A model generated the notes under the pieces. That model was given only the letters and a program-made list of their open reading frames with translations, was not told the origin of the DNA and did no database searches. From the NCBI RefSeq assembly GCF_002165625.1, contig NZ_NGNS01000017.1, forward strand, positions 1 to 64,000: DNA of 64,000 bases, read 5' to 3'. Position 1 is the stretch's first letter; each line of letters opens with the position of its first letter. Shown in pieces: positions 38,359-48,785 of the stretch. The DNA is from Neiella marina (GTDB taxonomy: Bacteria; Pseudomonadota; Gammaproteobacteria; Enterobacterales; Neiellaceae). The position numbers and the translations under genes are program-made.

Positions 38359-38922
38359 TTAGTGCTGCTTTTGCATAAACAGCACCACCTGTCCGACCTC
38401 CAGACCAAATTTACGCAGAGTGCCGATATTGATAATGACGTTGTCATCAACTTGGTAGAGCCAATCGTTTACCCCTACCACCCACTCTTCGCCATCCACT
38501 TCGATAATGAGGTCATATTGCCAGTTCATTGCGTAAGCAACGACGCTACCTGAGGCCTCGCCGACCACATCGCCGGCAGTGCCGGTAATTTCGTCACCAT
38601 TGACGGAGAGCTGCCAAATTCGGGTCTGCTGTTCACCATCGTCAAACTGAAAGACTTCGTCGAGCACTCCCGTATCGCCTTGCCAACTCGCATCAATCGT
38701 CGCGGTAAAACGGCGCTTCACCACGCCACTGCGGTCGCTGACAATGCCCCAGGCCATGAGCTTGCCATCAAAGTATTGTTTGACATCCAATTCACCGGTT
38801 TGACCTTGGTAATCATTGAGCGACTGCGAGCAACCGACCGTAACCACAACCATGACAGCAACAATGACCAACAACATGGGCTTGACGGTTATTGCGCCGA
38901 CGCTCTTGAGCCTATTTAGCAT
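38359..38922 (-). CDS. DUF3833 lipoprotein-like protein
   Basis: This 187-residue protein has a hydrophobic N-terminus ending VTVGCSQS, a lipobox-like site that is atypical at position -3. The mature part shows DUF3833 features: YFDGKLMAWGIVSDRSG, RRFTATIDASWQGD and FDDGEQQTRIW. A calycin-like beta barrel is expected. It is the last gene of the eight-gene operon that starts at 44757. DUF3833 proteins regularly accompany CFA-synthase/DUF1365 clusters; their function is unknown, but a lipid-carrier role in the envelope is a reasonable guess. Confidence 0.8.
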   Translation of the reverse strand: MLNRLKSVGAITVKPMLLVIVAVMVVVTVGCSQSLNDYQGQTGELDVKQYFDGKLMAWGIVSDRSGVVKRRFTATIDASWQGDTGVLDEVFQFDDGEQQTRIWQLSVNGDEITGTAGDVVGEASGSVVAYAMNWQYDLIIEVDGEEWVVGVNDWLYQVDDNVIINIGTLRKFGLEVGQVVLFMQKQH

Positions 38923-38934
38923 TAACGAAACTCC

Positions 38935-39585
38935 TTAGTTGGCGCCTAGTAGCGCTAGTCGAAATTGCTGATGTTCTGCCCGCTCGAGCAACCAAATACT
39001 TAAAAAATCGCGAGTAAAACTGGCGGAATCAATACGCCCTAAGTTTTTCAATTCACTACCGCGACGAAACCAAAACTCCGAACTACCATCGTTCGCCACC
39101 TGAACAATCAGCTCATCGCCTTCTGTGACGTCGGGCCAGAGCTGGTGCAACTGCGTCAGCCACTGGGCTTGCTGTTGGTGATCGCCAATATCAAGCTGCT
39201 GCCACTGCTCCATGGTTTGTTCGAGCAAATCTTCTTTGTCGATGTCCATCTGATAGTTCAACAACAACACAGTGCCCGGCAGATTGTTAAAGTCAAACTG
39301 GCCGGTCGGGTGGAATAACTTGGCTTGGTAAATCGTCCACCACAGCCAGTCAAAGTCGGCTTTGCCAAGCATGAACTGATCGGACATTAGCTCACTTAAA
39401 CCATCTCTCGACTGTGAGCTGCTTGCCTTGTCGCCAGCTGGTGCACTTCCCATACTCGCGGCATTGACCGGCGCTAGCGCAAATACCACCAGCCACACTG
39501 ACAGCATTACAAGTGCCAGCCGGCGTTGTATTTTTAGAGAAAGCTGAACGATGTCGGGGGGATATGTAGTCGTTGACCTAGACAT
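38935..39585 (-). CDS. Chalcone-isomerase-like secreted protein
   Basis: The 216-residue protein has a single hydrophobic N-terminal segment (VMLSVWLVVFALAPVNA) that serves as signal or anchor. The remainder has the bacterial chalcone-isomerase-like pattern: LGKADFDWLWWTIYQAKLFHP, LLLNYQMDIDKEDLLEQTMEQW and FTRDFLSIWL. Such domains in plants and bacteria often bind fatty acids rather than act on flavonoids. The stop lies 12 bases before DUF3833. An 86-base gap with a long hairpin separates it from DUF2878. Confidence 0.82.
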   Translation of the reverse strand: MSRSTTTYPPDIVQLSLKIQRRLALVMLSVWLVVFALAPVNAASMGSAPAGDKASSSQSRDGLSELMSDQFMLGKADFDWLWWTIYQAKLFHPTGQFDFNNLPGTVLLLNYQMDIDKEDLLEQTMEQWQQLDIGDHQQQAQWLTQLHQLWPDVTEGDELIVQVANDGSSEFWFRRGSELKNLGRIDSASFTRDFLSIWLLERAEHQQFRLALLGAN

Positions 39586-39592
39586 AAACGCT

Positions 39593-39633
39593 CCTTGGTT
39601 GTTATTTGTTTTAAGTAAAACAACAACCCAAGG
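39593..39633. repeat. Long nested hairpin inside the lipid-modification operon
   Basis: CCTTGGTTG pairs with CAAC-CCAAGG (one bulge), and inside it TTGTTTT pairs with AAAACAA around AAGT. No T run follows in the direction of transcription, so it more likely affects mRNA processing or stability than termination. Confidence 0.5.
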
Positions 39634-39671
39634 ATCAGTTCATATGGCGATCTATCTGTTGAACATGATGG

Positions 39672-40214
39672 CTATTTGGTGAATTGAAATGACTTCGGTA
39701 CCAACCATATGGCACTGAGGTAGAACAAAATGGCCCATTCAATGGCAATCACAAAGGAGGTCGTTTGATCTAAATAGCCTCCTGCCAGCTTGGCGCCAGC
39801 AAAGTAACTCAACCAGCCGCCAATTGCAGCAAGTCCTGCTCCTAGCCATGGACGGGGTATTAACCAACGGATGCTGTGATTTAGCAGGGTTGCGAACAGA
39901 GGCCAGAAAGCGATCAGCCAAAGTGGCGGCACCGGCCCGCCATGATTCGGCAATACCAGCACCCCGCTGTACAGGTGAAACCCTTCGGCAATGATACCAA
40001 TGGCGGCAAACACTCCCATCAGGTACCGGTCTGAATCGGCAGTAGGAGATAACGACCAGTGCCCAATCAGCCATGCGATGACCCAAGGAACCGCAGCATT
40101 TCCTAGTGTTACCAAACTAAACCAACACAACTGAAATGCAAAAATGTTAAGCAACATCCACCACAAAGGTGACTTGGGCAGCTCAGGTAATGCGGTTTGT
40201 TTTGGCAATGGCAA
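39672..40214 (-). CDS. DUF2878 inner-membrane protein
   Basis: About 180 residues with five hydrophobic segments covering most of the chain, including LLNIFAFQLCWFSLVTLG, GIIAEGFHLYSGVLVLP and FVIAIEWAILFYLSAIWLV. This is the DUF2878 pattern. The start appears to be TTG at 40214 or 40208, with AAGGAA just upstream. It follows cfa by 25 bases. Function unknown; the constant company of CFA-type methyltransferases suggests a role with modified lipids. Confidence 0.8.
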   Translation of the reverse strand: MPLPKQTALPELPKSPLWWMLLNIFAFQLCWFSLVTLGNAAVPWVIAWLIGHWSLSPTADSDRYLMGVFAAIGIIAEGFHLYSGVLVLPNHGGPVPPLWLIAFWPLFATLLNHSIRWLIPRPWLGAGLAAIGGWLSYFAGAKLAGGYLDQTTSFVIAIEWAILFYLSAIWLVPKSFQFTK

Positions 40215-40239
40215 TTCCTTTGTCGGTGTCTGCTAGTGG

Positions 40240-41496
40240 TTAGCGAGTCGGTTTATCCAAAACCATTTGCACTGTGCTGATCGAGCGCTCATGGAATCCG
40301 CCTTCACAATAGCATAGGTAGAAACGCCACATGCGAATAAATCTATCGTCAAAACCAAGTGCTTTAACCTGCTCCAACTGACCATCAAAATTATCGCGCC
40401 AATCTTTTAAGGTTCTCGCGTAATCGAGACCAATGTCGCGTACTTGCCGAATGGCCAAGTCACTATATTGAGCAACTTTATCAGCCAGCACAGCCACCGA
40501 TGGCAGATAGCCGCCGGGGAAAATATATCGTTGAATAAAATCAACATTGCGGCGGTAGTAGCGCTCTCGCTGGTCAGCGATAGTAATCACCTGCAACAGC
40601 ATCTTACCGTTGTCCCTGACCAGGCTCGAACAGCGGTCGAAAAACGTCGACAAATGTTCATAGCCGACCGCCTCGATCATCTCGATTGAGATCAACTTTG
40701 AATAAGTACCTTGCAGCTTACGATAATCTTCTTTTAATACGGTAACTTGCTGCTCTAAACCTGCATCTTTAACGCGCTGCTGAGCAAACTGATATTGAGC
40801 GTAACTAATCGTCGTCGTGGTGACTTTGCAGCCGTAATTCTTTGCGGCAAAACAAGCCAAACCGCCCCAACCAGTGCCAATTTCCAGCAAATGATCAGCA
40901 TCTGTTAGCTCAAGATCATCACACACCAGTTTTAACTTGTGCTCAGAGGCTTGCAACAGGGATGACTCAGCGTCAGGATATACACCGCTTGAATACATCA
41001 TGGTTTCATCAAGAAACAACTGATAGAACGCATTACTGAGGTCATAATGATGGGCGATGTTGCGCTTAGAGCCCGACACAGTATTGCCATTGAATTTGTG
41101 CACTAGCTTCATGATTAAGCGCTTTAACGGACTAGACTGCGACTCAATGGCATCGAGGGTGGCCATGTTAGCCGCCATCAATCGAATCACCATGGTCAAA
41201 TCTGGGCTGTCCCACCAACCGTTCATGTAGGCTTCTGCAGCACCAATGCTGCCGCCGCTAACAACTGCTTTGTAAAACTGACTGTCGAGTACGACTATCT
41301 CAGCCGCTAAGTCTGATTGAGGGTCACCGTAGCTTTGTTGCCAACCGTTCTCATCACGCAGTGTCAATTGACCAACTTTCAGCTGCTCTAACAGTGCTAC
41401 CAGCATGCGTGTAAGCAACTTGGGCGCGACTGCTGCGACATCAGGTTTTACGGTCGCCATTGTCTTCTGATTGGCAACGGAGGATTCACTCGTCAT
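40240..41496 (-). CDS. cfa: Cyclopropane-fatty-acid-phospholipid synthase-type methyltransferase
   Basis: The 418-residue protein is SAM-dependent and acts on unsaturated phospholipid acyl chains at the membrane. It has an N-terminal lipid-facing domain (1-125), then the SAM motif LEIGTGWGGLACFAAKNYG, the SIEMIEAVGYEHL stretch and FIQRYIFPGGYLPS. The C-terminal CYCEGGFHERSI carries the conserved cysteine. A strong ribosome-binding site (GGAG) precedes the ATG, three bases after DUF1365 ends. In such clusters the product may be a cyclopropane or a methylated acyl chain leading to furan fatty acids; the sequence alone does not decide. Confidence 0.9.
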   Translation of the reverse strand: MTSESSVANQKTMATVKPDVAAVAPKLLTRMLVALLEQLKVGQLTLRDENGWQQSYGDPQSDLAAEIVVLDSQFYKAVVSGGSIGAAEAYMNGWWDSPDLTMVIRLMAANMATLDAIESQSSPLKRLIMKLVHKFNGNTVSGSKRNIAHHYDLSNAFYQLFLDETMMYSSGVYPDAESSLLQASEHKLKLVCDDLELTDADHLLEIGTGWGGLACFAAKNYGCKVTTTTISYAQYQFAQQRVKDAGLEQQVTVLKEDYRKLQGTYSKLISIEMIEAVGYEHLSTFFDRCSSLVRDNGKMLLQVITIADQRERYYRRNVDFIQRYIFPGGYLPSVAVLADKVAQYSDLAIRQVRDIGLDYARTLKDWRDNFDGQLEQVKALGFDDRFIRMWRFYLCYCEGGFHERSISTVQMVLDKPTR

Positions 41497-41499
41497 GCC

Positions 41500-42246
41500 T
41501 TAACTCCTGTGGTCCATGTTATGTGGAATGTAGGGCACCCCTTTGAGCCAGATTTTCAACGCCTGCCAATAAATCTTGGTGACCACGCTAACTGTCATAA
41601 TGGGGGTTTTTATCAACTCTCGGAACAAGTTACGAGAGTTCAGTGGTTGTTGGATCATTGCTAATGTGGCATCGAAAATTTTGCCTTCACGATCGTGATT
41701 TTCGATATGCAAATGCAGGCGCTTGGCAGGCGGCTTGATCCGCCAGTGGTAGTCCATATCTAAGTCCATAAACGGAGAAACATGAAACGCTTTGTTCATA
41801 GTCTCAGGCGCCTCAAATGCGCGCCGACAGTTGACTGCATAGTAATGCTTTTCCAGCCATGGCGTGTTACTCACCTCAGCTAGCAAGTACTGCAATTCAC
41901 CATCGCTGTCGTAGCAATAAAAGCAGTTAATGGGGCTAAAGTAGAGCCCCAGATAGCGCAACTGGCCAATCATCTCGATACGCCCATCGCAACGATAACC
42001 AGTTAATTCAAATAGCGTTTCTATGGCGGCCTGTTTGGCTGTCAAAGTCGGTTTGTTGGGGAAGTAATCGGAGCGACGAAACTGCGCCCAGTTAAATCGG
42101 TTAAATGAGAACCAACGAAGTTGTTGGTCGAGTTGCGGCAATTCGTCTAAATCGATGGCTGGCATAAACAGCGGATAGCAGAAACTGTTGTGCTTTGGTC
42201 GCAATCGCCGGTGGCGAACTTGGCCTCGATAAAGTCGCGATTTCAT
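41500..42246 (-). CDS. DUF1365 protein
   Basis: This 248-residue protein belongs to DUF1365, recognisable from YRGQVRHRRLRPKHNSFCYPLFM at the start, then GQLRYLGLYFSPINCFYCYD, EVSNTPWLEKHYY and KAFHVSPFMDLDMDYHWRIKPP. The family has no firmly known activity but nearly always pairs with the FAD oxidoreductase and CFA-type enzyme seen here, so it probably acts on the same lipid. It overlaps the FAD gene by four bases. Confidence 0.88.
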   Translation of the reverse strand: MKSRLYRGQVRHRRLRPKHNSFCYPLFMPAIDLDELPQLDQQLRWFSFNRFNWAQFRRSDYFPNKPTLTAKQAAIETLFELTGYRCDGRIEMIGQLRYLGLYFSPINCFYCYDSDGELQYLLAEVSNTPWLEKHYYAVNCRRAFEAPETMNKAFHVSPFMDLDMDYHWRIKPPAKRLHLHIENHDREGKIFDATLAMIQQPLNSRNLFRELIKTPIMTVSVVTKIYWQALKIWLKGVPYIPHNMDHRS

Positions 42247-43538
42247 GCTGCATTCCTCGGCAATTCAGCACCTTTCGCAGCAATCAATTCGACCACGTCT
42301 TGCGCCGAGCGAACACCATCTTCGTGGAAGCCGTTGTACCAGTACGCACCGCAAAAATAACAGCCGTCAACGCCGTTGATTTCAGCCCGTCGCTGTTGGG
42401 CCGCGAAACTGGTGCGATTGAATACCGGATGATCATACAGGTAGGTACCAATAATCTTGTCTGGATCGATTTGCTCTGACTGATTAAGGCTTACACAATA
42501 GGTATGTTTGCTCTGCAAGCCCTGTAGAATATTCATGTTGTAAGTCAGTGTCGCTTGCGGGTGTTCACTGTCATCTAACATGTAGTTCCATGCAGCCCAA
42601 GCCGCCTGACGCTCAGGCAGCCTAGATGTATCGGTATGTAATATGACATCATTTTGTTGGTATGGGATATCACCGAGAATGTCATTCTCTAGCGCCGAAG
42701 CGCTCTCCCCTAGCAGCGTCAATGCCTCATCACTGTGGCAAGCAAAAACAACCGCATCGAACTCATCCTCGCCACTGCCATGACTAACGATAAAGCGTGT
42801 CGGTAGTGCGCCTTCGGCACTGTTTTTTCGACGGACCGAAGTAGCGCCGCTAGCAAATTCGATATCACCATCGACTTGCTCACGCCATGCTTTGACGTAC
42901 TGATGCGAACCACCTTTAATGACATACCATTGCGGCCGGTCCGTGATCTCGAGCAAACCATGATTGACGAAGAATCGGATAAAGAACAAGGCCGGAAATT
43001 CATCCATGTCTTTGATTGATGATGACCAAATGGCTGCTCCCATCGACATCAAATAGTTGATCCGGAAGAACTGGTTGAACTTGTGTTGTTCAAGAAACTC
43101 GCTCAACGATGAATTTTCATCAATCTCACCGTTGGCATAACTTGCTTTAGCCAGCTTATTGAAGCGATAAATATCGTACAAAAAACGGTAGAACTTAGGA
43201 TTGAACCAATTTCGCTTCTGCGCAAACAGGGTCGAGAAGGTGTGGCCGTTATACTCAAGATTTTCTGCCGGGTTACTGACGCTGTAACTCATATCGGTGT
43301 TTTGATACGGCACCTTAAGTTGCGCCAGAAAGGCTTGGAATCTTGGATAAGTACGGTCATTGAACACAATAAAACCGGTGTCAATTGCTTGCCCTTGATG
43401 TTCACCATCAAGTTCCTTGGTTGCCGTGTGGCCCCCCAAGTAATCATTTTTTTCAAACAACGTCACCTGATGCTCTTTACGCAAATGATAACTCGCGACG
43501 ATCCCTGATATACCGCTGCCGATGACTGCTATTTTCAT
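42243..43538 (-). CDS. FAD-dependent oxidoreductase of the lipid-modification cluster
   Basis: The 431-residue flavoprotein has an N-terminal FAD Rossmann motif (VIGSGISGIVASYHL, residues about 5-19) followed by FEKNDYLGGHTAT, as in amine-oxidase/desaturase-type enzymes. Further family stretches are DTGFIVFNDRTYP, YVIKGGSHQYV and the C-terminal DGCYFCGAYWYNGFHEDGVRSA. In related clusters of alphaproteobacteria a flavoenzyme acts as a fatty-acid desaturase in furan-fatty-acid synthesis. That role is inferred here, not shown. It overlaps both neighbours by four bases. Confidence 0.87.
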   Translation of the reverse strand: MKIAVIGSGISGIVASYHLRKEHQVTLFEKNDYLGGHTATKELDGEHQGQAIDTGFIVFNDRTYPRFQAFLAQLKVPYQNTDMSYSVSNPAENLEYNGHTFSTLFAQKRNWFNPKFYRFLYDIYRFNKLAKASYANGEIDENSSLSEFLEQHKFNQFFRINYLMSMGAAIWSSSIKDMDEFPALFFIRFFVNHGLLEITDRPQWYVIKGGSHQYVKAWREQVDGDIEFASGATSVRRKNSAEGALPTRFIVSHGSGEDEFDAVVFACHSDEALTLLGESASALENDILGDIPYQQNDVILHTDTSRLPERQAAWAAWNYMLDDSEHPQATLTYNMNILQGLQSKHTYCVSLNQSEQIDPDKIIGTYLYDHPVFNRTSFAAQQRRAEINGVDGCYFCGAYWYNGFHEDGVRSAQDVVELIAAKGAELPRNAA

Positions 43539-44335
43539 GTCCTTGTTTCACCCTGTTGATGGCGAGTGTGAGATTGCTTGCCATTGTCCTGATTCGATTT
43601 GACCATCTTGCCAGCGAGCCAAATTCGCGCTGACACTGGCAGTTTGTGTAATGTCCGCAGTATTGCGCAAAACAAACGCGGAAAATGAACTTCATGGACA
43701 CCGCGCTCAATACCCCGGCGAATCGCTGCACTGGCACCATCGACAGTGGCCAGCATTGGCATATCGAAGTCGTTCTTACGGGTTAATGGCGTGTCGATAA
43801 AACCCAATATTACGGTTACCAATTGGATTCCCTTGGGCTTTAAACTCGTGCTCAATACATGCCCCATGTACTGCAGTGCTGCTTTCGATGCACCGTAAAA
43901 TTCTGCACGGACAAACGGCAAGTAAACAGATGCGCTAGACACCAGCGCCACTTTCGGTTTACTGGCTCTTTGCAACAGCGGCGTGAGACTTTGCAGCACT
44001 CTCACTGGCGCCACTACATTGACGTCGAGTGTTTGCTGCAACACCTCGGCATCAAGGTCACCATCGTCGACGTAGTGACAAACACCGGCATTGAGGATCA
44101 CCACATCAATGTTGTGATAACGCTCTTCAAGTTGCCACACACTGGTTTGCCAAGCATTGCCATCAGCCAGATCGCAACAGACTGTGTCTGCGCCCGATTG
44201 CTGTAAATCAATTAGTTGGTCCTTATTGCGACCAACAGCGATCACTGTGTCTCCAGCGTCCAAGTAATCTTTGGCGAGTTGATAGCCGATGCCAGAAGTA
44301 GCGCCAGTGATCAAAACCACTTGTTTCGTGTTCAT
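43535..44335 (-). CDS. Short-chain dehydrogenase/reductase
   Basis: A classical SDR of 266 residues: TGATSGIGYQLA cofactor motif at residues 10-21, NAG at about 101-103, and the catalytic Ser and Tyr-x3-Lys (SSASVYLPFVRAEFYGASKAA). A C-terminal segment ends in a basic tail. The substrate is unknown; operon position suggests a lipid-related alcohol or ketone. The start and stop overlap the neighbouring genes by four bases each, so the four genes from NTF2-like to DUF1365 are translationally coupled. Confidence 0.9.
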   Translation of the reverse strand: MNTKQVVLITGATSGIGYQLAKDYLDAGDTVIAVGRNKDQLIDLQQSGADTVCCDLADGNAWQTSVWQLEERYHNIDVVILNAGVCHYVDDGDLDAEVLQQTLDVNVVAPVRVLQSLTPLLQRASKPKVALVSSASVYLPFVRAEFYGASKAALQYMGHVLSTSLKPKGIQLVTVILGFIDTPLTRKNDFDMPMLATVDGASAAIRRGIERGVHEVHFPRLFCAILRTLHKLPVSARIWLAGKMVKSNQDNGKQSHTRHQQGETRT

Positions 44336-44757
44336 GCCGCCACCATGCGCCCTTTGACAAAGCGAATTGCCGTACCCAACACTGGCAGGTGCTCGTAGAG
44401 CATACTGCCGCCGTCGAAATAATCTCGATGCTGGATAATCAAACCGTCCTTGAGGGTAATTCTGCTCACCCCTTCGAGTTCCACTTCCCGGCCCCGATTG
44501 ATTCGCGGATGTTGATAAGTCATGGTCCAGCCAATCACCACCTGCGACTGCTCAGCAACTTGCCAGTTGTAGTTAAAGCCGATGGCTTCAACGTTGCTGT
44601 ACAAAGCGGCAAAGTATTCTTTGATATCGGCGAGCCCATCGATGCGATGAAAAGGGTCAATAAACGACGCTTTGGGGTGATAAAACTGGTCCAGCAACTC
44701 AAGGCTATGGGCGTCTAGCTTGGTATACATATCTTTAAAATTTTCAATCCATTGCAT
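44332..44757 (-). CDS. NTF2-like (SnoaL-type) protein, first gene of the operon
   Basis: From the ATG at 44757 the protein has 141 residues with the NTF2/SnoaL fold pattern: LLDQFYHPKASFIDPFHRIDGLADIKEYFAALY, VVIGWTMTYQH and EVELEGVSRITLKDGLIIQHRDYFDGG. Such folds bind small hydrophobic molecules or act as isomerases; no activity can be assigned. It is the first gene of the operon running to 38359, and a possible ECF-type promoter lies 26 bases before its start. Confidence 0.85.
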   Translation of the reverse strand: MQWIENFKDMYTKLDAHSLELLDQFYHPKASFIDPFHRIDGLADIKEYFAALYSNVEAIGFNYNWQVAEQSQVVIGWTMTYQHPRINRGREVELEGVSRITLKDGLIIQHRDYFDGGSMLYEHLPVLGTAIRFVKGRMVAA

Positions 44758-44782: not shown

Positions 44783-44811
44783 TGCTTACGCCACTTCAAT
44801 TGAGTGTATCA
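44783..44811 (-). promoter_or_regulatory. Candidate ECF-sigma promoter of the lipid-modification operon
   Basis: On the minus strand TGATAC is followed after 17 bases by TAAGCA, preceded by CG. This resembles the RpoE/ChrR singlet-oxygen promoter type (TGATC, about 18 bases, then TAAGA). The -10 element ends 26 bases before the start codon at 44757. The match is partial and made by eye. Confidence 0.4.
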
Positions 44812-44908
44812 GCTTGTTCAGTATTAGCTCGTTCAACGTCAATTTTTTGTTAGCGGATCAGTCAACTATCGGCAATTTGTGTGGTTGAAGGATTTTTGAA
44901 AGACAAAA

Positions 44909-44977: not shown

Positions 44978-46327
44978 ATGATGAAAAACAGCTATCAATT
45001 TCCAGCTGACTTCGAATGGGGAGCAGCCACCGCCGCCTATCAAATCGAGGGCGCCTACAATGAAGATGGTCGCGGTATGTCGACTTGGGACACATTCAGC
45101 CGTTTGCCGGGTCGCACCCTAAATGGCGATACCGGCAACGTTGCATGTGATCATTATCATCGTACCGAACAAGACATCGCCCTGATGAAACAGTTAGGCC
45201 TCAAGCACTATCGCTTCTCGATTGCTTGGCCTCGTATCCTGCCAAATGGCGAAGGTGAAGTGAACCAGGCCGGTATCGACTTTTACAGTAAGTTGGTTGA
45301 CGACCTACTAGCTGCCGGCATTGAGCCGTTGATCACCCTATTCCATTGGGATCTGCCACAAGCGTTGCAAGACAAATATGGCGGCTGGAAGTCGCGAAAA
45401 GTCGCCGAATTGTTTGCCGAGTATGCTGATATTGTTACTAAAGCGCTGGGCGATCGGGTCAAACGCTGGAGCACCATTAATGAAATCATGTGCTTCACCA
45501 ACATGGCCCACAAAACGGAGCAGCACGCACCGGGTGGAAAAGAAACTGACCAAGTTGCCAACCAAACCGTTCACCATGCCATGATTGGCCATGGATTAGC
45601 TGTGCAGGCGATTCGCAACAATGTGCCAGATGCTATCGTCGGTATTGTCGAGTGTTTGTTTGCCCCGTGGCCGCTTCACAACACCGAGTCTCACTTGGAT
45701 GCCGCACGCAAAGCATTTAAAGATCGCAATGCTCAGATCCTATTCCCATTGCTGACTGGCGAATATGACGAAGTGGCTTACCAACGCGAGTTTGGTGATC
45801 TGCCTGAGTACAGCGCTGAAGATATGAAAATCATTAGTGAGCCGCTCGACTACATCGGTTACAACTTCTACAACCATCCACCTGTGCGACCAAGTGACAA
45901 GCCTTGGGGTTTTGATATCGTCGACATGCCAGAAGCCTACCCTCGCACCGACATGGGCTGGCCCATTACGCCAGATGCGATGTACTGGTTGTTGAAGTTC
46001 TCACAAGAGTTCTTTGGTGATCTGCCTATTTACATTACCGAAAATGGCATGGCTGCGGCCGACAAGGTCGAGCGCGATGGCACCGTACAAGACATGGATC
46101 GCATTGAGTTTCTGCGCACTCACCTACGTGCTTGCCAACGTGCGATTAGCGAGGGTGTGCCACTCAAGGGCTATTACGTTTGGTCATTGTTTGACAATTT
46201 CGAATGGGCTTTTGGTTACGACAAACGCTTTGGAATTATTCGTGTTGAGTACGATACTCAGCAGCGGATTATCAAAGAATCGGGTCACTACTACAGCGCC
46301 GTCATGGCAGAAAATGCAGTGCTGTAA
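44978..46327 (+). CDS. Beta-glucosidase, glycoside hydrolase family 1
   Basis: The 449-residue GH1 enzyme lacks a signal peptide, so it is cytoplasmic and cleaves imported beta-glucosides such as cellobiose. The acid/base is Glu169 in TINEI and the nucleophile Glu355 in YITENGM. The family usually has NEP; the NEI form is common in 6-phospho-beta-glucosidases. However, the C-terminal WSLFDNFEWAFGY is the non-phosphorylated sugar-binding type, so free beta-glucosides are the better guess. The gene sits in the opposite direction between two halves of a photorepair/lipid region and has its own operator and terminator. Confidence 0.93.
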   Translation: MMKNSYQFPADFEWGAATAAYQIEGAYNEDGRGMSTWDTFSRLPGRTLNGDTGNVACDHYHRTEQDIALMKQLGLKHYRFSIAWPRILPNGEGEVNQAGIDFYSKLVDDLLAAGIEPLITLFHWDLPQALQDKYGGWKSRKVAELFAEYADIVTKALGDRVKRWSTINEIMCFTNMAHKTEQHAPGGKETDQVANQTVHHAMIGHGLAVQAIRNNVPDAIVGIVECLFAPWPLHNTESHLDAARKAFKDRNAQILFPLLTGEYDEVAYQREFGDLPEYSAEDMKIISEPLDYIGYNFYNHPPVRPSDKPWGFDIVDMPEAYPRTDMGWPITPDAMYWLLKFSQEFFGDLPIYITENGMAAADKVERDGTVQDMDRIEFLRTHLRACQRAISEGVPLKGYYVWSLFDNFEWAFGYDKRFGIIRVEYDTQQRIIKESGHYYSAVMAENAVL

Positions 46328-46345: not shown

Positions 46346-46373
46346 AGCGGGCTTATTAGCCCGCTTCTTTTTT
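46346..46373. terminator. Terminator between the convergent GH1 and phrB genes
   Basis: The AGCGGGCT/AGCCCGCT stem with a TATT loop is followed on the plus strand by TCTTTTTT. It ends GH1 transcription, and its T run lies over the last codons of phrB on the other strand. Confidence 0.88.
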
Positions 46374-47798
46374 AAGGCTTTGCTGATAAAGCTCCAAACA
46401 CATTTGTCGGCGCTCTTTGTGATCAACCACCGCCGGTAGATAATTTCCACCTGCGCCAGCCTGATGGAGCAATTTCGCCTCTAGCCCTCGCAATTGCTCA
46501 ACATACTGTTGAATGAATAAGCCTTTGTCATCAAAACGTTTTGATTGGGTTTCCGGATTAAAAATTCGAAAATAAGGCGCGGCATCAGTACCTGTCGAAG
46601 CGGCCCACTGCCAACCGCCATTATTAGCAGCAAAATCACCATCAACCAGCTTGCTCATAAAGTAGCGTTCGCCCCAACGCCAATCGATCAACAAATCTTT
46701 GCAAAGAAACGATGCCACGATCATTCGCAGTCGATTATGCATCCAGCCTGTCTGGTTCAGCTGCCGCATTGCGGCATCGACTAAAGGAAAGCCAGTCTCG
46801 CCTCGGCACCAACTGTCGAACAGCTGACCATCATTGGTCCAGGGAATGGCCTCATAATCAGGTTTAAAGGCTTTGTCCTTGCAAACGTGTGGCCAGGCAA
46901 CCATCACATGTTGATAGAACTCGCGCCATATCAGTTCAGTTAACCAAGTTTTAGCACCTTCAGCTAATTCCCACGGCGAGCCGTGATCGTGACTGAGTCG
47001 CGCTAAACATTGCCGAGCAGACAAGCTACCAATAGCTAAATATGGCGATAGCACTGAGGTGCCGTCAATGGCGGGAAAATCTCGGTCGGCACGATAACGC
47101 GCTGCTCGCTCAGCACTAAACTGGCGCAATTGCGCGATAACTTCCTGACCGTCGGCGGCGTAAGCACTACTGTCAGCGCCGGCATAGGGCCAACTGTCCG
47201 CCTCGAGAGAACAAAGCGGCAATGTGGAATCATCGATATCAGTGATCAACTTCGGCATTTGTTGCGGTCGGCCTAAACACTGCCAACCAACCGAGTGCAG
47301 CTCTTTCAACCAAGCTTTACTAAACGGCGTGAATACCTTGTAAGGCTGGGCGCTGCCATTAAGTACTGAATTTGGTTTAATAATGCAGCGGTCATCGAAC
47401 CAATGAAGGTCCAAATTGCCCTCGATGTCGTGTTGTAGCGCATTGTCTCTGGCGACTTCATCAACTTCGTATTCTCGGCTAGCAAAAAGCGCGTCTATTC
47501 GCCATTGACCTATACACTGTTGCACCAAGGCCCGCTGTTCAGCAAAGCTCCCTGCTTGCAACACCACCAGCGGGACGTTGAGCTGCGCCAACTCGCTGCG
47601 CAGATGAACTAACGTGCGCCGAATTAAATCAGCTTGAATGGGACTTTTGTGATACTGCTGCCACTGCTCCGCTGGAACCACATACAGGGCAACAACAGCT
47701 TCGCTGGCATCGCACGCATGATAAAGTGCTGGGTTATCGAGGATGCGCAAATCGCGACGCAGCCAAACGCAGCTGCGCTGATAATGTCTGTCAGTCAC
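46356..47798 (-). CDS. phrB: Deoxyribodipyrimidine photolyase, CPD class I
   Basis: The enzyme repairs UV-induced cyclobutane pyrimidine dimers using blue light. The 480-residue protein has the N-terminal antenna-binding domain (WLRRDLRILDNPAL), a linker, and the C-terminal FAD domain. The latter carries TSVLSPYLAIGSLSARQC, WLTELIWREFYQH and MHNRLRMIVASFLCKDLLIDWRWGE, then NNGGWQWAASTGTDAAPYFRIFNP. The start is GTG with GAGG upstream. It lies 12 bases after the ybgA-like gene on the same strand. Confidence 0.95.
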   Translation of the reverse strand: MTDRHYQRSCVWLRRDLRILDNPALYHACDASEAVVALYVVPAEQWQQYHKSPIQADLIRRTLVHLRSELAQLNVPLVVLQAGSFAEQRALVQQCIGQWRIDALFASREYEVDEVARDNALQHDIEGNLDLHWFDDRCIIKPNSVLNGSAQPYKVFTPFSKAWLKELHSVGWQCLGRPQQMPKLITDIDDSTLPLCSLEADSWPYAGADSSAYAADGQEVIAQLRQFSAERAARYRADRDFPAIDGTSVLSPYLAIGSLSARQCLARLSHDHGSPWELAEGAKTWLTELIWREFYQHVMVAWPHVCKDKAFKPDYEAIPWTNDGQLFDSWCRGETGFPLVDAAMRQLNQTGWMHNRLRMIVASFLCKDLLIDWRWGERYFMSKLVDGDFAANNGGWQWAASTGTDAAPYFRIFNPETQSKRFDDKGLFIQQYVEQLRGLEAKLLHQAGAGGNYLPAVVDHKERRQMCLELYQQSLKKEAG

Positions 47799-47810: not shown

Positions 47811-48785
47811 CTACAGCTGCTGTCGCAATGCCAGCTTGTCGGGGTGGGGTCTGATGTAGACCTGATTGCTAAGGTATTCGTTGGGAAACTTGACCAATAG
47901 ATGTTGAATCAAGGTCATTGGCGCCATCAACGGCAACAGTCCCTGCCTGTATTTATCAATCACATCTGCTAATGCTTGTCGCTCTTCAGTACCGATAAAC
48001 TTCTTAAAATAGCCCTGCAAGTGCATCAAGGTATTCGTATGGCCTTTGCGATTTGCTCGTTGCTTTAACGCCCACATCAATCCATAAATGTACTCATCAG
48101 CAACGTCTTGCAAATCATTGCTGCTGAGATCAGAAATCAACTGGCCAAGGGTGCGATAGGAGGTTTGATGGCTAGCCATCACCATGAACTTATAGCGGGA
48201 ATGGAATTTCACCAGCTTATCAGCCGTCAGACCAGAGTGAATCATCCGCTGCCAATCTTGCAGAGCATAGACTCTGGTGACGAAGTTTTCCCGCAACACA
48301 GGGTCACATAGCCTGCCGTTTTCTTCGACCGGCAGCAGTGGGTAACGCTCCATCAATGCTTTGGTAAAGACACCAACCGAGTCGTGCCTTAGGGTATGAC
48401 CATCAGGATGATAGACCTTAATGCGTTCCATACCGCAGCTCGGCGACTTAGCGCAAACGATAAAACCACTTAAACCGTCCAGTGTTTGGCTTTGTTGCTG
48501 GCTGAACGACGACATAGCGTCGGTTACGTTAAGAGTCGAATCGGTAGAGCCGACGATTTCAATGGCGCCGTCGACTTCAACTTGGCGGATGGTGGGGCGC
48601 GGCACGCCCATACCAATTGCCACTTCTGGGCATACAGGTACGTAGGAAACGAATTCTCGCAGGTCGCGGTCGGCAAAGCCCAAACGCTTGTGACCACCGT
48701 CGAATCGAACGCCTTGTCCAACGACACAGGCGCTGACCCCGATTTGAATGGAATCGGGTTTGAATTGGGTTTGAACTAGTTTCAT
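47811..48785 (-). CDS. ybgA: YbgA-like DUF523/DUF1722 protein
   Basis: A two-domain protein of 324 residues. The DUF523 part (about 12-165) has the cysteine-rich IGVSACVVGQGVRFDGGHK and VCAKSPSCGMERIKVY. The DUF1722 part (about 190-310) has FHSRYKFMVMASHQTSYRTLGQL and MHLQGYFKKFI. In E. coli ybgA precedes phr, and here too it precedes phrB by 12 bases. The exact function is unknown; the pairing with photolyase is strong and old. Confidence 0.92.
   Translation of the reverse strand: MKLVQTQFKPDSIQIGVSACVVGQGVRFDGGHKRLGFADRDLREFVSYVPVCPEVAIGMGVPRPTIRQVEVDGAIEIVGSTDSTLNVTDAMSSFSQQQSQTLDGLSGFIVCAKSPSCGMERIKVYHPDGHTLRHDSVGVFTKALMERYPLLPVEENGRLCDPVLRENFVTRVYALQDWQRMIHSGLTADKLVKFHSRYKFMVMASHQTSYRTLGQLISDLSSNDLQDVADEYIYGLMWALKQRANRKGHTNTLMHLQGYFKKFIGTEERQALADVIDKYRQGLLPLMAPMTLIQHLLVKFPNEYLSNQVYIRPHPDKLALRQQL

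Follow-up and report, generated by a model that had tools for sequence, protein, structure and literature searches.

We analyze an eight-gene operon in a 64,000-nucleotide stretch of DNA from the gammaproteobacterium Neiella marina (positions 1 to 64,000 of contig NZ_NGNS01000017.1, assembly GCF_002165625.1; hereafter, the window) and find that it very probably equips membrane phospholipids with methylated furan fatty acids, within a response to singlet oxygen and blue light. The initial annotation had described the operon as serving an unusual membrane-lipid modification. A lipid-modifying role stands, but the suggestion of an unknown pathway does not, since the genes are of the known ufaD-ufaO-ufaM kind. 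The operon can largely be explained as a member of the singlet-oxygen regulon that makes furan fatty acids in gammaproteobacteria, with core enzymes that are already known, and this narrows the question to why DUF2878, a chalcone-isomerase-like protein (CHI) and DUF3833 accompany furan-lipid synthesis.

In the list of open reading frames of the window, the eight genes all lie on the minus strand, running from 44757 to 38359:

44332..44757, minus strand: NTF2-like/SnoaL-type protein, first gene of the operon (Pfam SnoaL_2/NTF2-like), with a possible TTG start at 44799
43535..44335, minus strand: short-chain dehydrogenase/reductase (SDR; Pfam adh_short)
42243..43538, minus strand: flavin (FAD) amine-oxidase-family protein, putative UfaD-type fatty-acyl desaturase (Pfam Amino_oxidase/NAD_binding_8; position beside UfaO and UfaM)
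41500..42246, minus strand: DUF1365, putative UfaO-type furan-forming oxygenase (PF07103, E 4e-80)
40240..41496, minus strand: CMAS-family S-adenosylmethionine-dependent methyltransferase, UfaM-type, with Gln at the position of E. coli Cfa His266 (Pfam CMAS, 5e-81)
39672..40214, minus strand: DUF2878, polytopic membrane protein (Pfam DUF2878, 1e-28)
38935..39585, minus strand: Chalcone_3-like protein (CHI) with an N-terminal hydrophobic or signal segment (Pfam, 3e-7, barely above the cut-off)
38359..38922, minus strand: DUF3833 lipoprotein, predicted calycin-like beta-barrel (Pfam DUF3833, 2e-58)

The reading frames and Pfam family matches bear out the gene content, strand and coordinates first proposed, as well as the coupling of the first four genes, which are joined by three overlaps of 4 bases each (NTF2/SDR at 44332-44335, SDR/FAD at 43535-43538, FAD/DUF1365 at 42243-42246). 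A gap of 3 bases separates DUF1365 from the methyltransferase gene, and the other intergenic gaps measure 12-86 bases. The genome holds a single DUF1365 gene (PF07103), and the methyltransferase is its only full-length CMAS enzyme.

The assignment to the furan pathway starts from the three central genes. In Rhodopseudomonas palustris, formation of the monomethyl furan fatty acid 9M5-FuFA requires RPA2571, RPA2570 and RPA2569 (ufaD, ufaO and ufaM), and these three genes are enough for it: cis-vaccenate receives a methyl group from UfaM, UfaD carries out a desaturation, and the oxygen, taken from O2, is put in by the DUF1365 protein UfaO (PMC7380195). The order FAD-DUF1365-methyltransferase in the window matches this ufaD-ufaO-ufaM order, and the same three families make up the pathway in R. 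sphaeroides (RSP1091, RSP1090, RSP2144) and in Halomonas sp. YLGW01, with which the window also shares the methyltransferase clade described below and the link to sigma-E/ChrR. In Halomonas the three genes are consecutive, and its ufaM yielded 11-methyloctadec-12-enoate in E. coli (PMC12089945). The role of DUF1365, which the initial annotation took to be not established, is therefore that of the furan-forming oxygenase UfaO (PMC7380195), while the link it drew to furan fatty acids and to singlet oxygen or light was right and can be drawn much more firmly.

The triad is conserved far beyond Neiella. The scan query was a narrow DUF1365 alignment, the diversity of a class-wide one having been too great, and in 84,980 species genomes it returned 80 named loci spanning gamma-, beta- and alphaproteobacteria, Nitrospirae, Planctomycetes, Geobacter and others. 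In 79 of the 80 loci the FAD, DUF1365 and methyltransferase genes directly follow one another on the same strand, and the lone exception sits at a contig end. Within 6 kb of DUF1365, we find DUF2878 in 64 loci, SDR in 42, NTF2 in 39, CHI in 35, photolyase and YbgA in 32 each, and DUF3833 in 31. The extended order sigma-E-ChrR-YbgA-Phr-NTF2-SDR-FAD-DUF1365-methyltransferase-DUF2878-CHI-DUF3833 occurs in Shewanella, Pseudoalteromonas, Motilimonas and a Vibrionales strain; as the same eight genes recur in the same order in many named genomes, the order is not due to chance. Azospirillum and Ensifer carry FAD-DUF1365-methyltransferase clusters by ChrR-sigma-E, with MFS, DUF3833 and SDR genes nearby. 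Shewanella and Enterobacter, both represented among the 80 loci, also count among the sources from which furan acids were described decades ago (Shewanella putrefaciens, Enterobacter agglomerans and others; reviewed in PMC3528120). Clusters of this kind have surfaced in other contexts as well: one with the same genes in Aeromonas is reported to respond to riboflavin, with no function assigned (PMC10012899), and orthologues of the core regulon lie in a similar cluster in Pseudomonas syringae (PMC5507510).

The methyltransferase carries the most specific evidence on the product. Cyclopropane synthases bind bicarbonate through Glu239, His266 and Tyr317 (PMC11387697). Like E. coli Cfa (PDB 6BQC), the window enzyme belongs to the CMAS family and keeps the Glu239 and Tyr317 equivalents, but it has Gln for His266 and Ser for Cys139 and falls in a separate clade. 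Gln occupies the His266 position in 78 of the 78 operon-linked methyltransferases that are readable there, and also in the alphaproteobacterial syntenic enzymes of Ensifer and Rhizobium tropici, whereas the Cfa proteins of E. coli and Aquifex have His; the Gln-type enzymes form one clade that excludes Cfa (support 0.95). The window enzyme is 40% identical to the R. tropici methyltransferase that follows FAD-DUF1365 and 34% identical to E. coli Cfa, and it scores under every Cfa equivalog cut-off. From the Gln substitution and the separate clade, a furan fatty acid is to be expected rather than a cyclopropane one. The enzyme first labelled “CFA-type” is thus of the UfaM type and not a cyclopropane synthase. 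That it is nonetheless a true cyclopropane synthase, with the operon yielding cyclopropane or other methyl-branched chains and DUF1365 and the FAD protein doing something else, is highly improbable: the shared family, the identity to Cfa and the annotation of the gene as cfa in papers on Shewanella, Aeromonas and Vibrio speak for it, but the uniform loss of the His266 ligand, the separate clade, the sub-threshold equivalog scores and the furan precursors obtained from those syntenic enzymes studied experimentally all speak against it. We infer that Gln266 may be what makes the enzyme deliver a methyl group with a double-bond shift instead of a ring. In practice, Gln at this position offers a simple marker separating UfaM-type enzymes from the “cyclopropane synthase” annotations of the Shewanella, Aeromonas and Vibrio literature.

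A second CMAS methyltransferase, followed by DUF2878, lies 3-6 kb upstream of the triad in many loci (L088, L092, L111, L115 and others). This type has His-Phe at the Cfa 266/268 positions, forms a clade of its own, and is common near the triad in Nitrospira, Methylophilus and others.

For DUF1365, the predicted model is confident (pLDDT 93.6). No relative was found in the PDB by sequence, and a fold search returned a best match at E 5e-3, with none convincing, so no mechanism can be borrowed; the oxygen chemistry of UfaO merits study for this very reason, as DUF1365 has no relative among solved structures. The aligned DUF1365 proteins are of two types, NTPW-x-E versus NT-(F/L)G-E, which differ by a one-residue deletion (window residues 127-132), and both types co-occur with DUF3833.

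Regulation by singlet oxygen or light is suggested by a sigma-E/ChrR system in the genome and by a promoter-like site in front of the operon. An extracytoplasmic function (ECF) sigma factor and a ChrR-family anti-sigma factor are encoded on contig 1 (L012:2653-4027; TIGR02451, 175.7 bits versus a cut-off of 124.5), and a TGATC-N17-CGTAAC site stands upstream of the gene preceding the pair. As for the operon itself, comparison with the consensus TGATC-N17-CGTA identifies one candidate:

44836..44860, minus strand: candidate sigma-E(RpoE2)-type promoter, TGATCC-N16-CGT(TGA), ~80-100 bp upstream of the NTF2-like gene

Both elements are identical in Neiella litorisoli, the closest named genome (DUF1365 90% identical), while the spacer and the stretch immediately upstream have diverged. 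In relatives, the motif lies 36-103 bp before the sigma gene, before YbgA, or before NTF2 where NTF2 heads its own operon. We regard the site as the likely operon promoter, and no more than likely because its -10 element differs from CGTA. A search of the operon's upstream region for the V. cholerae consensus in its exact form, TGATC-N18-CGTA, gave no match there.

Other candidates were discarded. A consensus match at 41631 falls within the DUF1365 gene and is no better than expected by chance; matches ~180-230 bp upstream of NTF2 in relatives fall in the 3' coding region of photolyase and reflect a recurring conserved codon pattern; and a Cupin_7 protein on contig 34, considered as ChrR, has two cupin domains and no adjoining sigma gene, the real pair being on contig 1. 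On contig 1, the sigma-E-ChrR pair is preceded by glutathione-peroxidase-like and DUF4397-like genes, recognized by eye (L012:259-870 and 1186-2607), and the TGATC-N17-CGTAAC site stands before the DUF4397-like gene.

Work on other organisms ties such operons to this stimulus. In Shewanella oneidensis, SO_3386-SO_3374 (ybgA ... phrB ... cfa) is described as one operon, predicted by promoter recognition to belong to the RpoE2 regulon (PMC4336711). In Vibrio cholerae, ChrR and sigma-E mediate blue-light induction, and VC1122, annotated as a CFA synthase, responds to such light with strong induction (PMC5241685). In R. sphaeroides, resistance to singlet oxygen depends on RSP1090 and RSP1091 (UfaO and UfaD), and degradation of ChrR depends on RSP1090 (PMC3818230), so that the pathway acts back on the regulator that controls it. 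The S. oneidensis operon, which together with the V. cholerae cluster around VC1122-VC1123 is among the closest known systems, shares ybgA, phrB and the cfa-type gene with the window, and the full gene set and order of the window are seen in Shewanella species other than S. oneidensis.

Taken together, singlet oxygen or light would release the ECF sigma factor from ChrR, and sigma-E would transcribe the operon from the site at 44860-44836. The UfaM-type methyltransferase (40240-41496) would methylate a cis-vaccenoyl chain at C11 with a shift of the double bond, the UfaD-type flavoprotein (42243-43538) would introduce a second double bond, and UfaO/DUF1365 (41500-42246) would add oxygen from O2 and close the furan ring. 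DUF2878, CHI and DUF3833 would be accessory envelope proteins that act on the product or its oxidation products, or handle them, and not synthetic enzymes. Gene content, order, conservation, methyltransferase subtype, the presence of sigma-E/ChrR and the promoter-like site are read from sequence here; for the chemistry and the induction we lean on experiments with orthologues elsewhere, and the accessory roles we infer.

Unlike the characterized Ufa systems, the window triad sits inside a larger gammaproteobacterial operon (NTF2-like, SDR, DUF2878, CHI), and its product in this organism is predicted from the genes. Several points weigh against this account. Orthology to the R. sphaeroides and R. 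palustris enzymes is judged indirectly, through alphaproteobacterial syntenic loci (L158-L160). What is established for Gln266 is that it marks the operon-linked enzymes, and not that it brings about their different product. The -10 element, CGTTGA, deviates from the consensus CGTA. Finally, an inserted GH1 gene severs photolyase and ybgA from the operon; in this, and in having sigma-E-ChrR on another contig, the window differs from the Shewanella RpoE2 operon.

We turn to the accessory genes. The view that the roles of DUF2878, DUF3833 and CHI are not established is one we share, and it extends to the SDR and NTF2-like proteins. Our preferred but unproven reading is that DUF2878, CHI and DUF3833 handle the furan lipid, or what its oxidation yields, across the envelope. 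DUF2878 has several membrane segments. CHI has a hydrophobic segment at its N terminus in 30 of 36 proteins and appears to be exported, away from the cytoplasmic enzymes; a profile search with the family gave only a weak match, to the mitochondrial yeast protein Aim18 (E 0.015). The lipobox Cys of DUF3833 is invariant and is followed at +2 by Ser, Gly or Thr in 32 of 32 proteins, which by the usual +2 rule predicts an outer-membrane-type lipoprotein; its model is a predicted calycin-like, 10-stranded barrel (pLDDT 91.5), with best PDB matches to Ycf58/CpcS, BFA1 and nitrobindin (E ~1e-4 to 2e-3, TM 0.5-0.6). In its most specific form, which we offer tentatively and consider rather unlikely as it stands, DUF2878 in the inner membrane, exported CHI in the periplasm and DUF3833 as an outer-membrane lipoprotein would compose an envelope-spanning module. 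Equally tentatively, such a module would bind, move or clear furan fatty acids or their reactive singlet-oxygen products between the membranes. If true, it would be a lipid-handling system not yet described.

It is also possible, if somewhat doubtful, that NTF2, SDR, DUF2878, CHI and DUF3833 have nothing to do with the furan lipid and are simply co-transcribed members of the light/singlet-oxygen regulon, like photolyase. Photolyase and ybgA do lie in the operon of relatives, without a known lipid role, and DUF2878-CHI-DUF3833 stands away from the triad in some genomes, shifting position together (upstream in Colwellia, convergent in Oceanospirillaceae, separate in genome G139). However, a general stress gene would be tied less strictly to DUF1365 than DUF3833 is. 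In a sample of 143 genomes of the class, one per family and with relatedness controlled no further, DUF1365 is present in 39; DUF3833 occurs with it in 19 genomes and without it in only 2 (19/21, Fisher p 5e-11), and DUF2878 occurs with it in 16 of 22 (Fisher p 1.5e-6). In 16 of its 21 genomes DUF3833 is moreover no more than 10 kb from DUF1365, and in 11 it stands beside a Chalcone_3 gene; in the 80-locus set CHI and DUF3833 are direct neighbours wherever both are present, which is the case in 30 loci.

An improbable alternative is that the furan pathway is only a start and that SDR, NTF2-like and CHI proteins are extra catalysts leading to a further-modified acyl chain. The SDR and NTF2-like genes are translationally coupled in the window and recur near the triad (42 and 39 loci, as above), and such folds are often enzymes; the triad alone suffices, however, and CHI would be apart from the cytoplasmic enzymes. 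Genetics in R. sphaeroides also argues against it. There, RSP1091-1087 run in the order UfaD, UfaO, GPH/MFS symporter, a 186-amino-acid protein and SDR, and the P. syringae homologue of RSP1088 is a lipoprotein (PMC5507510); from its position, size and lipoprotein homology, RSP1088 is probably DUF3833. Single deletions of RSP1087 (SDR), RSP1088 or RSP1089 (MFS) left the fatty-acid profile unchanged (PMC7380195), so the accessory genes shared with R. sphaeroides are probably dispensable for synthesis and, by this analogy, probably not synthetic, as the envelope-handling reading supposes.

On the other side of the promoter, and beyond the region covered by the initial annotation, lie two genes that belong to the operon in relatives and one that separates them from it:

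44978..46327, plus strand: GH1 beta-glucosidase, which parts photolyase from the NTF2 gene here and is not considered a member of the system (photolyase and NTF2 are directly adjacent in most relatives)
46356..47798, minus strand: DNA photolyase (PhrB), in the same operon in relatives, from their neighbourhoods
47811..48785, minus strand: YbgA-like DUF523/DUF1722 protein, likewise in the same operon in relatives, from their neighbourhoods

The order in N. litorisoli is identical, ybgA-phr-(gap)-NTF2-SDR-FAD-DUF1365-methyltransferase-DUF2878-CHI-DUF3833, with a gap between the photolyase and NTF2 genes of similar size; the operon is continuous in most other relatives. Malate synthase G and a DUF3612 regulator lie on the operon's downstream side.

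DUF3833 also turns up on plasmids. About 95 Klebsiella plasmid records carry a DUF3833 gene, and few carry DUF1365. In the one plasmid examined, NZ_CP014763.1 (L161:6890-8397), a DUF3833-ybgA remnant lies between insertion sequence (IS) elements and a lac operon and resembles the end of the furan operon that Klebsiella/Enterobacter carry on the chromosome.

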